In this document: one piece after another, positions 7,347 through 58,174 of the stretch
How the letters are laid out: each line of letters starts with the position of its first letter
How positions within the stretch are numbered: position 1 is the first letter of the stretch
Assembly: GCF_002188465.1 (NCBI RefSeq)
Contig: NZ_NINW01000018.1
Coordinates: 1 to 58,174, forward strand
Direction: 5' to 3'
Source of the DNA: Pigmentiphaga sp. NML080357
GTDB lineage: Bacteria > Pseudomonadota > Gammaproteobacteria > Burkholderiales > Burkholderiaceae_B
Length of the DNA: 58,174 bases
Program-made: the position numbers and the translations under genes
Notes under the pieces: generated by a model
Told to the model about the DNA's origin: nothing
Seen by the model: the letters and a program-made list of their open reading frames with translations, nothing else
The model's database searches: none

Positions 7347-8354
7347 CTAGGGACGGCGGGCGGCATGGGCCGCGCCTAGCGCCGCGCCCACCAGCAGGAC
7401 CGCGCACGCCGCCGCCAGCAGCGGTCCGCGGCCGCGTGTCGCCATGTGCGTATAGGCGCTGTGGCGATGGACCCGCCCCTGGCTTACCGGGGCTTCGCCG
7501 TCGCCCGGGGTCTCTAGTCCATCGTGGCGTTCGCGCGCGGGAATGCCGGTGCGCTGGTGCTTGACGAGCCAGTTCGCCATTCTGTCGGCCAGCCGCGGCA
7601 TGCGCTGGCCGAAGTGACCGATGGCCTTCGCCGCGCCGCCCACGTAGATGTCGCGGCGAGGATGCTCGGCGGCATACAGGATGGCCCGGGCCGCGACCTC
7701 GGGCGCATAGACGGGCGGCGGCAGGCGCGGCTCCACGTCCATGTAATTGCGCGCATTGGCCGTGAACCGTGTGGCAATGGATGCCGGCTTGACCAGGGTG
7801 ACCGACACGGGCACGCCTTCGGTTTCCAGTTCCATGCGCAGGGCATCGGTGAACCCCTTCACGGCATGCTTGGACGCCGAGTAGGCGCCTTGCAGCGGCA
7901 CCGCGCGGTCCGACACTTCGCTGCCGACGTTGATGAGGGCGCCGCCGTGCTTGCGCAGATGCGCCACCGAGACGATCGAGCCGTAGACGACGCCCCAATA
8001 GTTGGTGTCGAAGAGCTTGCGCTGGTCTTCCAGCGGCACGTCCTCGATGCGCCCATAGATCGAGACTCCGGCATTGTTGATCCAGGTGTCCACTGCGCCG
8101 TAGGTGTCGAGGGCGGTCTGCAGCAGCCGCTCGTGATCCTCGCGGCGACCCACGTCCGCCTGGACGGCGGTGGCCTGGCCGCCCGCCGCCCGCAGTTCCT
8201 CGGCCACCGCGTCCAGCCGTTCCTTGTCGCGGCAGGCGAGCACGAGCCGCGCCCCCTGGCGGGCGGCCTCGCGGGCGGTCGCCAGCCCTATGCCGCTGCT
8301 GGCTCCGGTGATGACGATGACCTGGTCGGCAAGTCGTTTCAGGCGGTATTTCAT
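7347..8354 (-). CDS. SDR-family oxidoreductase with C-terminal membrane tail
   Basis: The 335-residue classical short-chain dehydrogenase has a Rossmann TGASSGIG (16-23), NNAG (93-96) and catalytic Ser about 145, Tyr about 158 and Lys about 162 (YSASK), so it should be active with NAD(P). Beyond the usual 250-270 residue core there is a basic linker and a final hydrophobic helix (about 312-330, LLAAACAVLLVGAALG), predicting tail anchoring in the inner membrane. The substrate is unknown. The gene is transcribed toward the small disordered protein gene. Confidence 0.88.
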   Translation of the reverse strand: MKYRLKRLADQVIVITGASSGIGLATAREAARQGARLVLACRDKERLDAVAEELRAAGGQATAVQADVGRREDHERLLQTALDTYGAVDTWINNAGVSIYGRIEDVPLEDQRKLFDTNYWGVVYGSIVSVAHLRKHGGALINVGSEVSDRAVPLQGAYSASKHAVKGFTDALRMELETEGVPVSVTLVKPASIATRFTANARNYMDVEPRLPPPVYAPEVAARAILYAAEHPRRDIYVGGAAKAIGHFGQRMPRLADRMANWLVKHQRTGIPARERHDGLETPGDGEAPVSQGRVHRHSAYTHMATRGRGPLLAAACAVLLVGAALGAAHAARRP

Positions 8355-40431: not shown

Positions 40432-40462
40432 GCGGACCGGCAAAGCCGGATCCGCGGCGCCC
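40432..40462. repeat. 31-bp GC module, copy 2
   Basis: This copy differs from copies 1 and 3 only at the two central bases (AA). It directly abuts the solitary 108-bp-type unit at 40461-40569, the same arrangement as copy 3 and the tandem array. Confidence 0.8.
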
Positions 40463-40569
40463 TTGATCTGGTACGAGTTTCTTGGGTCGCAGCACCGTTG
40501 CTACCGCTGGCAGCCAGCTAAGCATAGGCGCCACATTCCAAGAAAGCGGCACTAGACCCAGGATGCGGT
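40461..40569. repeat. Diverged single copy of the 108-bp palindromic unit
   Basis: This 109-bp copy shares exact blocks ACCGTTGCTACCGCTGGC, CCAAGAAAGCGG and ACTAGACCCAGGATGCGGT with the tandem units at 57528-58174, with substitutions elsewhere. The outer arms are only partly complementary here. It ends directly upstream of the inverted module copy and about 125 bp before the pyrG promoter. Confidence 0.8.
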
Positions 40570-40628
40570 GGATCCGGCTCCGCCGGTCCACCCGCATCGC
40601 CCCCTGGGGGGCGCGCGGCAGCGCGTAG

Positions 40629-56497: not shown

Positions 56498-56701
56498 TCA
56501 GGTGGGGACCTTTTTCAGCATTTCCAGTCCGGTCAGTCCGGCAGCCACTTCGCGCAGCGCGGTGACGGTGGGCTTGTCCTTGGTATCGAGCTTGGGCGCA
56601 TGGCCCTGGGCCAGTTGGCGCGCGCGATAGGTAGCCACGAGGGTCAGTTTGAACCGGTTGGGAATTTGCTTCAAGCAGTCTTCGACGGTGATACGTGCCA
56701 T
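56498..56701 (-). CDS. rpoZ: RNA polymerase omega subunit
   Basis: The 67-residue protein [30 protein letters not shown] is the typical omega N-terminus, with the ARQLAQG segment that packs on the beta' subunit. A longer upstream frame exists, but ATG 56701 is the standard start. It lies between gmk and spoT as in E. coli, and with SpoT forms part of the ppGpp-responsive machinery. Confidence 0.97.
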
Positions 56702-56738
56702 GAGGGTCCCTGAAAGCTGTGCGTGCTGGACGCGATAT

Positions 56739-57380
56739 TCAAAGCGGAGCGGACGTCTGCGGGATGCCCAGTTGCGAGAACAGGTCGGCATGCCGCGCTG
56801 CCTGCGAACGAAAACGCAGCCTGGCGGCGGTAACGATCGTCGTCAAATCTGCCAAGGCTGCGCTAAAGTCTTGATTAATAATAACATATTCGAATTCGGG
56901 GGCATGCGCGAACTCGCCCCCCGCCGCCAGCAGCCTGCGGGCGATCACATGGGGCTCGTCCTGGCCGCGCTGGTGCAGGCGCGTTTCCAGGGCTTCGATC
57001 GACGGCGGCAGGATGAAAATCCCGATGGCTTCCGGGAACTTGGCGCGGACCTGGCGCGCGCCCTGCCAGTCGATTTCCAGCAGGACATCATTGCCCGCCT
57101 GGGTCTGGCGATCGATCCAGTCGCGGGGGGTGCCATAGTAGTTGCCGTGCACCTCCGCCCATTCCAGCAGGGCATCGTCGCGCTGCATTTTCTCGAAGGC
57201 GGGGACCGAGACGAAGTGGTACTCCTTGCCGTCGGTCTCGCCCGGGCGGGGCGGGCGGGTAGTGCAGGAGACGGACAAGCGGATTTCCGGCCTGGCCTTG
57301 AGGAGGGCATTGACCAGGCTGGACTTGCCGGCGCCGCTGGGAGCGACGACCATGAAAACGTTACCGGCGCGTGGAGGCAT
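56739..57380 (-). CDS. gmk: Guanylate kinase
   Basis: The 213-residue enzyme converts GMP and ATP to GDP and ADP. P-loop APSGAGKSS is at 13-21. GMP-binding residues lie in [22 protein letters not shown] (about 36-57) and [13 protein letters not shown]. The start ATG 57380 is preceded by GGAGGC-like bases on the minus strand after the repeat region. It is first of the gmk-rpoZ-spoT operon; the 108-bp array occupies the DNA upstream of its promoter. Confidence 0.97.
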
Positions 57381-57527
57381 GAAAAGTCGGGCGCAAAGAC
57401 GCTAGCATACCAACTGCCGCGCCAGGCCTCCCAAACCGTTGTGAAAAAGCCCACCCCCTGGCGGCCTTCGGCCGCTCCCCCTCAAGGGGGCGGCGCTGGC
57501 GGACCGGCGAAGCCGGATCCGCGGCGC
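57381..57527. other. gmk upstream region with GC repeats
   Basis: This region holds the presumptive gmk promoter (minus strand), a short hairpin GCGGCC-TTC-GGCCGC (about 57461-57475), CCCCCT-CA-AGGGGG (57477-57490), and the third copy of the 31-bp module. The module directly abuts the tandem array. Confidence 0.55.
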
Positions 57528-57529
57528 CC
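57499..57529. repeat. 31-bp GC module, copy 3
   Basis: Matches 38899-38929 and 40432-40462 except for two adjacent bases (GA here). Its last two bases are the first two of the tandem array's first unit, the same join as at 40461-40462. Confidence 0.8.
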
Positions 57530-58174
57530 TGGGTCTAGTGAGACTTTCTTAAATTGCTACACTGTTGCTACCGCTGGCGCCAGCGAAGCACCGGCGCCAC
57601 AACCCAAGAAAGCGGTAATAGACCCAGGATGCGGTCCTGGCCTAGTGAGACTTTCTTAAATTGCTACACCGTTGCTATAGCTGGCGCCAGCGAAGCACCG
57701 GCGCCACAACCCAAGAAAGCGGTACTAGACCCAGGATGCGATCCTGGGTCTAGTGAGACTTTCTTAAATTGCTACACCGTTGCTATAGCTGGCGCCAGCG
57801 AAGCACCGGCGCCACAACCCAAGAAAGCGGTACTAGACCCAGGATGCGGTCCTGGGTCTAGTGAGACTTTCTTAAATTGCTACACCGTTGCTATAGCTGG
57901 CGCCAGCGAAGCACCGGCGCCACAACCCAAGAAAGCGGTACTAGACCCAGGATGCGATCCTGGGTCTAGTGAGACTTTCTTAAATTGCTACACCGTTGCT
58001 ACCGCTGGCGCCAGCGAAGCACCGGCGCCACAACCCAAGAAAGCGGTACTAGACCCAGGATGCGGTCCTGGGTCTAGTGAGACTTTCTTAAATTGCTACA
58101 CCGTTGCTACCGCTGGCGCCAGCGAAGCACCGGCGCCACAACCCAAGAAAGCGGTACTAGACCCAGGATGCGAT
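57528..58174. repeat. Tandem array of six 108-bp palindromic units, continuing past the window
   Basis: Units begin at 57528, 57636 (107 bp, one-base deletion), 57743, 57851, 57959 and 58067; the window ends exactly at the sixth unit's end. In each, CCTGGGTCTAGT (unit 1-12) pairs with ACTAGACCCAGG (90-101) and CTTTCTT (17-23) with AAGAAAG (79-85). The centre has the palindrome CTGGCGCCAG (47-56). Unit ends read GCGGT, GCGAT alternately through all six. Copies 2-4 have GCTATAG where 1, 5 and 6 have GCTACCG. No spacers vary, so it is not a CRISPR. Confidence 0.92.

Follow-up and report, generated by a model that had tools for sequence, protein, structure and literature searches.

A tandem array between mlaC and gmk of Pigmentiphaga formed by the core of a dispersed hairpin element found behind genes

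The tandem array at one end of a contig of Pigmentiphaga sp. NML080357 is, in the reading that we favour with moderate confidence, the amplified core of an element of the 3' untranslated region (UTR) that resembles REP and BIME sequences, is without a RAYT and acts as RNA within the messenger. The window, by which we mean the whole 58,174-nucleotide stretch of DNA that was analysed, is the entire contig C20 of a genome of 59 contigs and 5.73 Mb (G000 in what follows), and the array lies in it beside gmk, with mlaC on its far side in a second contig. Dozens of relatives of the array unit occur elsewhere in this genome, as the cores of composites that stand at the ends of genes; the arms of these composites covary across genera, the core pairs in a strand-asymmetric manner, and among the genomes sampled the core was found only in Pigmentiphaga, in part of the genus.

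TRF reports the array at 57528-58174 with a period of 108, 6.0 copies, 97% matches and a score of 1203, which bears out the six near-identical 108-bp units running to the end of the window that a first-pass annotation had described, and by direct reading the units measure 108, 107, 108, 108, 108 and 108 bp. The nested inverted repeats claimed for each unit are likewise all seen by direct reading, namely 12-bp outer arms (CCTGGGTCTAGT/ACTAGACCCAGG), 7-bp middle arms (CTTTCTT/AAGAAAG) and a central palindrome (CTGGCGCCAG), as is the alternative stem across the unit junctions, in which CTAGACCCAGGA and TCCTGGGTCTAG stand on either side of TGCG(G/A). On the plus strand, unit 1 (57528-57635) carries the private variants CTGTT and GGTAATAG and ends in GGT, unit 2 (57636-57742) is the one of 107 bp, has CCTGGCC and ends in GAT, unit 3 (57743-57850) ends in GGT, unit 4 (57851-57958) in GAT and unit 5 (57959-58066) in GGT, and unit 6 (58067-58174) reaches the contig end. 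This alternation of GGT and GAT at the 3' ends of successive units would point to the amplification of a 216-bp dimer, and the sequence suggests that the dimer was multiplied after one first duplication. That the unit can fold, as had been proposed, is seen in unit 3, which as RNA lies far below its shuffles on both strands (z -4.9 on the plus and -8.4 on the minus strand).

The contig end cuts the array, C20 stopping inside it, and the array goes on in contig C32 (L009:1-669), which starts with the last 27 bp of unit 1 and leaves the array at 669. The private variants GGTAATAG and CCTGGCCTAG are common to both contigs, and the two combined imply about seven units, a count left in some doubt by a conflict in unit 6, which reads CC...GAT in C20 and TA...GAT in C32. 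Two conserved arms flank the array and each is present once, the core alone being multiplied at this site. The left arm (57450-57527, plus strand, its outer end at 57450 and its inner end joined to unit 1) has three hairpins and is assigned by its sequence, by the presence of a similar arm next to most of the dispersed copies that were read, and by the fold and covariation seen across arms of this family; the right arm is in C32 (L009 about 670-737), where it overlaps the end of mlaC. Beyond the array, gmk (guanylate kinase, Pfam PF00625; 56739-57380, minus strand) lies on the same strand as mlaC, with 147 bp between its start at 57380 and the array. Among named sequences its nearest match is gmk of Pigmentiphaga humi (91%), in a comparison from which records of its own genome may be missing. 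The first-pass annotation had allowed for a structured RNA upstream of gmk, and both the strand-asymmetric pairing and the location at a gene 3' end support such an RNA, which would however belong to the 3' UTR of mlaC and not to the leader of gmk.

The frame of mlaC enters the arm and stops in the loop of its first hairpin (TGA/TAA; L009 about 718-740 in C32), so that the arm itself supplies the mlaC stop codon, and an arm-supplied stop with a short PPTR-like tail of MlaC was seen by eye in G000 and in the relatives G002 and G007. Across 56700-58174 there are six terminator-like matches against 1.7 expected, four of which are the junction hairpins on the plus strand, opposite to the favoured RNA strand; the sole canonical-looking minus-strand terminator near the element in the 1.5 kb scanned is at 57464-57451, and the same interval holds no promoter-like match. 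Elsewhere in the window there are a second composite of the same family, in single copy (40461-40575, plus strand, 89% to the typed query), and a short imperfect tandem repeat at 7380-7430 (period 27, 1.9 copies).

The composite consists of a palindromic core of about 102-109 bp between two arms of about 80 bp that face each other, and the array unit is its core, which rules out an independent repeat. A 17-base pattern from the core end has 51 exact and 20 one-mismatch matches in the genome (hand tally), 13 of these 71 in the contig ends that hold the array and 58 elsewhere, and the reversed pattern, used as a control, has none. From 41 core matches in G000 one at a locus edge was dropped, and the array units were left out of the single-copy statistics; in the remaining 40 dispersed copies, all with both flanks, the core is single and conserved arms bound nearly all of them (by eye), the layout being outer hairpins followed by GGCGGACCGGCAAAGCCGGATCC or a related form. 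Part of an arm is missing in a few copies (L043, L045 and the second copies in L014 and L016), and the dispersed cores differ in length through indels. Of 25 pairs of neighbouring arms separated by at most 200 bp, 20 are in facing orientation. In L021 the arm is directly preceded, left of the element (near 2042), by some 18-20 consecutive G, a stretch that may be unstable in length or a sequencing effect.

Among the loci read, a multiplied core alone is seen only at mlaC-gmk. Three tandem copies of a 214-bp unit, core plus arm, lie inside a contig of G002, and this second tandem type, a core with one arm of about 213-214 bp in all, was noted at L299 (G002:C12 about 60470-61020) and at L319 (G008:C1 about 759200-759450), the latter having one core and then the start of a second, with a junction very similar to that of the G002 unit. 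As for the suggestion of a mobile palindromic element that had amplified, the unit is indeed a module of a dispersed palindromic element and its amplification is local; what is dispersed, however, is arm-core-arm rather than the 108-bp unit by itself, and the places searched for a transposase partner yielded none.

Genes were called with a codon-score script of our own and not with a published gene finder. All 40 G000 copies are outside called genes, and 38 of them border on a gene 3' end on one side or both; in the orientation of the element, a hand tally gives 18 gaps between leftward pairs, 11 convergent gaps, 9 between rightward pairs and 2 divergent gaps, with a gene 3' end toward the right arm in 29 of the 40 copies and toward the left arm in 20. 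A further survey covered one contiguous 1.6 Mb of the relative G008 (about 3.40-5.00 Mb), chosen for its many core matches, where the 15 full composites comprise 7 convergent, 7 same-strand and 1 divergent case and a single one of the 15 is inside a called gene, the convergent share of 7/15 comparing with 30/313 for gaps of at least 150 bp (p 1.4e-4). The same 1.6 Mb holds 89 arm matches, 4 of them inside called genes; with these 4 and one arm without a neighbour omitted, the gaps of at least 100 bp comprise 60 that hold an arm, of which 17 are convergent and 2 divergent, and 415 that do not, of which 19 are convergent (p 8e-8) and 179 divergent (p 4e-11). Where a gap holds a single arm, gaps with more than one having been left out of this distance test, the outer end is toward a gene 3' end in 33 of 42 cases, with a median distance of 5 bp to the stop among those 33, and toward a gene 5' end in 9. 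Arms in 23 loci of other genomes behave alike: in other genera 19 of 21, and in G005 and G010, which are Pigmentiphaga, 2 of 2 face a gene 3' end, 21 in all. The element thus lies, as would be expected of a REP-like sequence, downstream of genes, in convergent and same-strand gaps and rarely in divergent ones.

Two side observations concern G008. Several of its arm-bearing genes in these 1.6 Mb look like housekeeping genes by eye, one resembling rho and others aroC, ilvC, glmM and lpxC, and the strand of the element appears uneven along G008:C1, being mostly minus above 3.4 Mb, which perhaps tracks the direction of genes or of replication.

The arm, about 78-88 bp long and with a GC content of 78% in the typed arm, folds as three hairpins, and four arms of about 80 bp stand in tandem in L197. 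In an alignment of 26 arms from seven genera (20 from six other genera and 6 from Pigmentiphaga, 4 of the 30 loci L174-L203 having been left out) 96.3% of cells are paired, 8 of 26 pairs are changed on both sides, and the covariation score is 0.156 against 0.074 when shuffled, with 0 of 500 shuffles as high; four of five measures lie above all 500 shuffles, the exception being further pair types, for which 278 of the 500 shuffles reach the observed value. Compensatory changes, which the first-pass annotation had looked to for support, therefore back the hairpins of the arm, with the kind of hairpin conservation that is typical of REP-like elements, but they are not strictly seen in the core. 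In the set of 88 copies described below the inner part of the right arm folds more stably as the minus strand in 86, and that of the left arm as the plus strand in 73 (as the minus strand in 14); for either arm the stabler reading is the one that runs from the outer end inward.

The core is a long imperfect palindrome, the pairing of which was scored in 88 copies from six genomes by a strand-neutral self-alignment of each copy; copies from G002, G004, G007 and G009 were picked among the best matches of the genus search, and copies that did not span the model from position 20 or lower to 180 or higher were dropped, as were gap-rich columns. Read as the minus strand, these cores contain 414 G-U and 88 A-C oppositions beside 3298 Watson-Crick and 519 other pairs, with G-U in excess in 83 of the 88 copies, A-C in 2 and neither in 3, and with G-U leading at 21 of 25 positions, although the copies are related and these counts are not independent events. 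RNA of the minus strand of the core is the stabler in 85 of 88 copies, and in 68 of 70 without column trimming. This strand runs from right arm to left arm and is the mlaC/gmk strand at the array, and the strand preferences of core and arms match the gene context, which was found independently. The unpaired core bases of the minus strand are themselves skewed (G+T 806 against A+C 538), from which a G-U to A-C ratio of about 2.2 follows by arithmetic against the 4.7 observed, an excess of about twofold, so that mutation bias may lie behind about half of the asymmetry. Among G000 copies the identities of the left and right core halves are not correlated (-0.03), the two halves assorting freely, and the core gives no sign of strict covariation; RNAalifold on the full core alignment did not recover the long core hairpin. 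Taken together, the element probably works in messenger RNA rather than as DNA.

Within the genus the core is present in 7 of 11 genomes, its own included, strongly in six and weakly in one, and with at most four candidates scored per genome it was found in 8 of 200 genomes of the family, seven of them Pigmentiphaga and the eighth (G177) by one 21-bp match; a unit first described from a single genome is therefore present in others. The arm is more widespread, occurring in 44 of the 200 family genomes and 10 of the 43 sampled genera, and in 16 of 250 genomes of an order sample, its own included, several of these by short matches only. With mlaC of the relatives recognised by eye, mlaC adjoins gmk in G002, G004, G005, G006, G007 and G008; gmk of G009 is split over two contigs, gmk of G003 has the same contig coordinates and upstream bases as in the window, and G001 has another gene beside gmk and no element. 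Read by eye, the gap holds two arms with another short spacer in G002, one arm in each of G007, G008 and G009, a remnant in G004 and nothing in G005 and G006, and in G003 there is one arm at which the contig ends. A tandem core is absent from mlaC-gmk in all the relatives compared, and the array is thus private to this genome among them.

Turnover of the composite was followed at 13 orthologous sites of G000 and G008, sorted by eye, a fourteenth pair (L035) having been dropped as a paralogue; for 26 further G000 copies the flanks were not close together in the G008 tiles, those of L025 and L040 lying far apart. None of the 13 G008 sites has an intact composite, 4 being empty and 9 having one or more arms, a different spacer or a partial core. 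At one of the 9, the L018 site, the model scores full length though a terminator-like hairpin replaces half of the core; here (near G008:C1:4132100) the core is interrupted by a canonical-looking terminator, a hairpin between runs of A and T. At the 4 empty sites no clear target-site duplication was recognised by eye, the outer ends being variable and the sites diverged. For 45 of the 88 copies the nearest relative of the core is in the same species, where shuffling gives a mean of 21 and a maximum of 36, and within G000 uniformity is higher in the arm parts of the model (0.92 and 0.96) than in the cores (0.82). Given this likeness within species and the uniformity of the arms, the composite copies are likely to have been spread by gene conversion or recent copying.

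Parts of the published description of REP, BIME and REPIN sequences (PMC3733652) allow a comparison with the present element. According to these, REPs are mostly downstream of genes and plausibly transcribed, and as here the three are intergenic hairpins 3' of coding regions, in convergent or same-strand gaps and often in facing pairs, whereas they are built of one palindrome of 20-40 bp where the arm has three hairpins in about 80 bp (PMC3733652). No invariant GTAG/CGTC end tag of the REP/REPIN kind was seen by eye at the outer end of the 26 arms, CTAC/TACG occurring internally in some, and the composite differs from REP and REPIN also in the lack of a RAYT in the core-bearing genomes, in its separate conserved core of about 109 bp and in its strand-asymmetric pairing; having failed the tests for tag and RAYT, the element is not filed as a REP. 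The Bor and Bor-1 sequences of Bordetella, in the Alcaligenaceae, are described as a high-copy intergenic stem-loop family, Bor-1 with models of 93 and 117 bp that are predicted to be structured and Bor near coding regions, and in a comparison by description only neither a facing-arm composite nor a core is among the features given in the available portions of those reports (PMC1590033, PMC2267715). REP-like families without conserved end motifs are also recorded for Bordetellae in the accessible part of the REP survey (PMC3733652).

A further candidate is BRE, in Bordetella a GC-rich, mostly intergenic repeat of 75-91 bp that is found in tandem and in variable number, occurs in Alcaligenaceae and other Betaproteobacteria and has one copy in the transcribed bprJ region, as far as the available text relates (PMC3110155). 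Compared by that description, its length, its GC range of 63.7-78.9% and its tandem copies fit the arm (about 78-88 bp, 78%, tandem in L197), but its mean GC is 69% and its 1-29 copies per genome, 8-22 in Bordetella (PMC3110155), are few beside the 89 matches to the arm in just 1.6 Mb of G008. No arm was found near lexA in 13 genomes, none of which was identified as belonging to the B. pertussis group. The arm may be the Bor-1 or BRE repeat of Bordetella. A known Rfam RNA is ruled out for the six loci searched (C32 and five single-copy loci), where no match reached the gathering score. The Correia elements or NEMIS of Neisseria are about 105-155 bp long, have inverted ends, are dispersed near genes and form hairpins that are processed as RNA. 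The composite is like them in its inverted ends and its dispersal near genes, a likeness drawn from general descriptions. In the literature searched no description was found of the composite, the core, the strand asymmetry or the amplification, and it is the Pigmentiphaga core, the asymmetry and the amplification that are the new part.

The rival that has to be taken most seriously, possible though in our view doubtful, is a non-autonomous mobile parasite of the MITE or REPIN kind that was spread by a transposase, its hairpins serving as recognition sites and its sites behind stop codons being merely tolerated. Such a parasite would account for the fast turnover at all 13 orthologous sites, for the 45 of 88 cores with their nearest relative in the same species (against a mean of 21) and for the long inverted-repeat architecture, but it would need a transposase, and no Y1 transposase of the RAYT family was found in any core-bearing genome; the search for Y1_Tnp (PF01797) in the 11 genus genomes gave one match, covering the last 31 of 121 positions, in G010, which is without the core, and a RAYT/REPIN system is thereby ruled out. 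Nor is any of the 28 genes that lie between arms 400-3000 bp apart in the 1.6 Mb of G008 transposase-like, as judged by eye from the first 60 residues. The empty sites are without a clear target duplication, the placing of the outer end, within a few bp of the stop and in a constant orientation, is more exact than tolerance would require, and compensatory changes in the arm extend across genera. It is unlikely that the core, gained within Pigmentiphaga, serves as a functional RNA set free from 3' UTRs, be it a small RNA or a protein sponge, with the array as its dosage-amplified source in the direction of mlaC. Unlikely too is an element that works as DNA, a cruciform or a set of binding sites for gyrase, a nucleoid protein or the like, as has been proposed for BIMEs. 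Convergent gene ends, where the composite is enriched, are sites of positive supercoiling, and the L010 composite folds far below its shuffles as single-stranded DNA (z -10), yet palindromic DNA predicts no strand difference, and G-U exceeds A-C 4.7-fold, about twice the effect of composition. The asymmetry also makes the protein-binding array of the first-pass annotation less likely where this is taken to act as DNA, and the arms are oriented relative to the gene.

Two further readings concern the array itself. It would seem very improbable that one or two real copies were collapsed or expanded by the assembly at a contig end; the array does stand at the ends of two contigs which conflict in unit 6, but private variants order the units in both, each has six full units, so that the second contig too shows several copies, and a tandem in another register (3 x 214 bp) lies inside a G002 contig. 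Translation of the array as a protein-coding repeat, by a 36-residue frame open across most of it, we can hardly credit at all: one frame has only 2 stops, and a 207-aa open frame passes through most of the array, but when units are shuffled without change of composition one or more of the six frames stay open in 82% of trials, and the dispersed cores vary in length by indels, on which grounds a coding repeat was ruled out.

If the array is, as we favour, the amplified core of an RNA element of the 3' UTR, its mode of action can be sketched from the sequence, with transcription, an effect on mRNA and the routes of spread and amplification being what we infer. The arm starts a few bases behind the stop with its outer end first and would thus be transcribed as 3' UTR, giving the mRNA a 3' end of three hairpins. 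At convergent gene ends one arm would serve each gene, between genes on the same strand two facing arms would close one gene, and the core would continue the hairpin structure for the right-hand gene, its RNA being read from right arm to left arm, here on the mlaC/gmk strand. In E. coli the hairpins of REP and BIME sequences protect mRNA 3' ends from exonucleases or influence termination, and by analogy those described here probably block 3'-5' decay or aid the ending of the transcript or of translation. Seven cores would then amount to seven long hairpins in the 3' UTR of mlaC ahead of gmk. The array could have originated by slippage or template switching at the inverted ends of 11-12 bp, the first duplication being followed by the copies of the dimer.

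The composite adds a structured element that is without an Rfam match in the six loci. With arms oriented near stop codons, a mismatch bias on one strand, no RAYT, rapid turnover and one amplification of the core only, it offers a natural test case for the long-standing question at which level, DNA or RNA, the dispersed palindromes of bacteria act.
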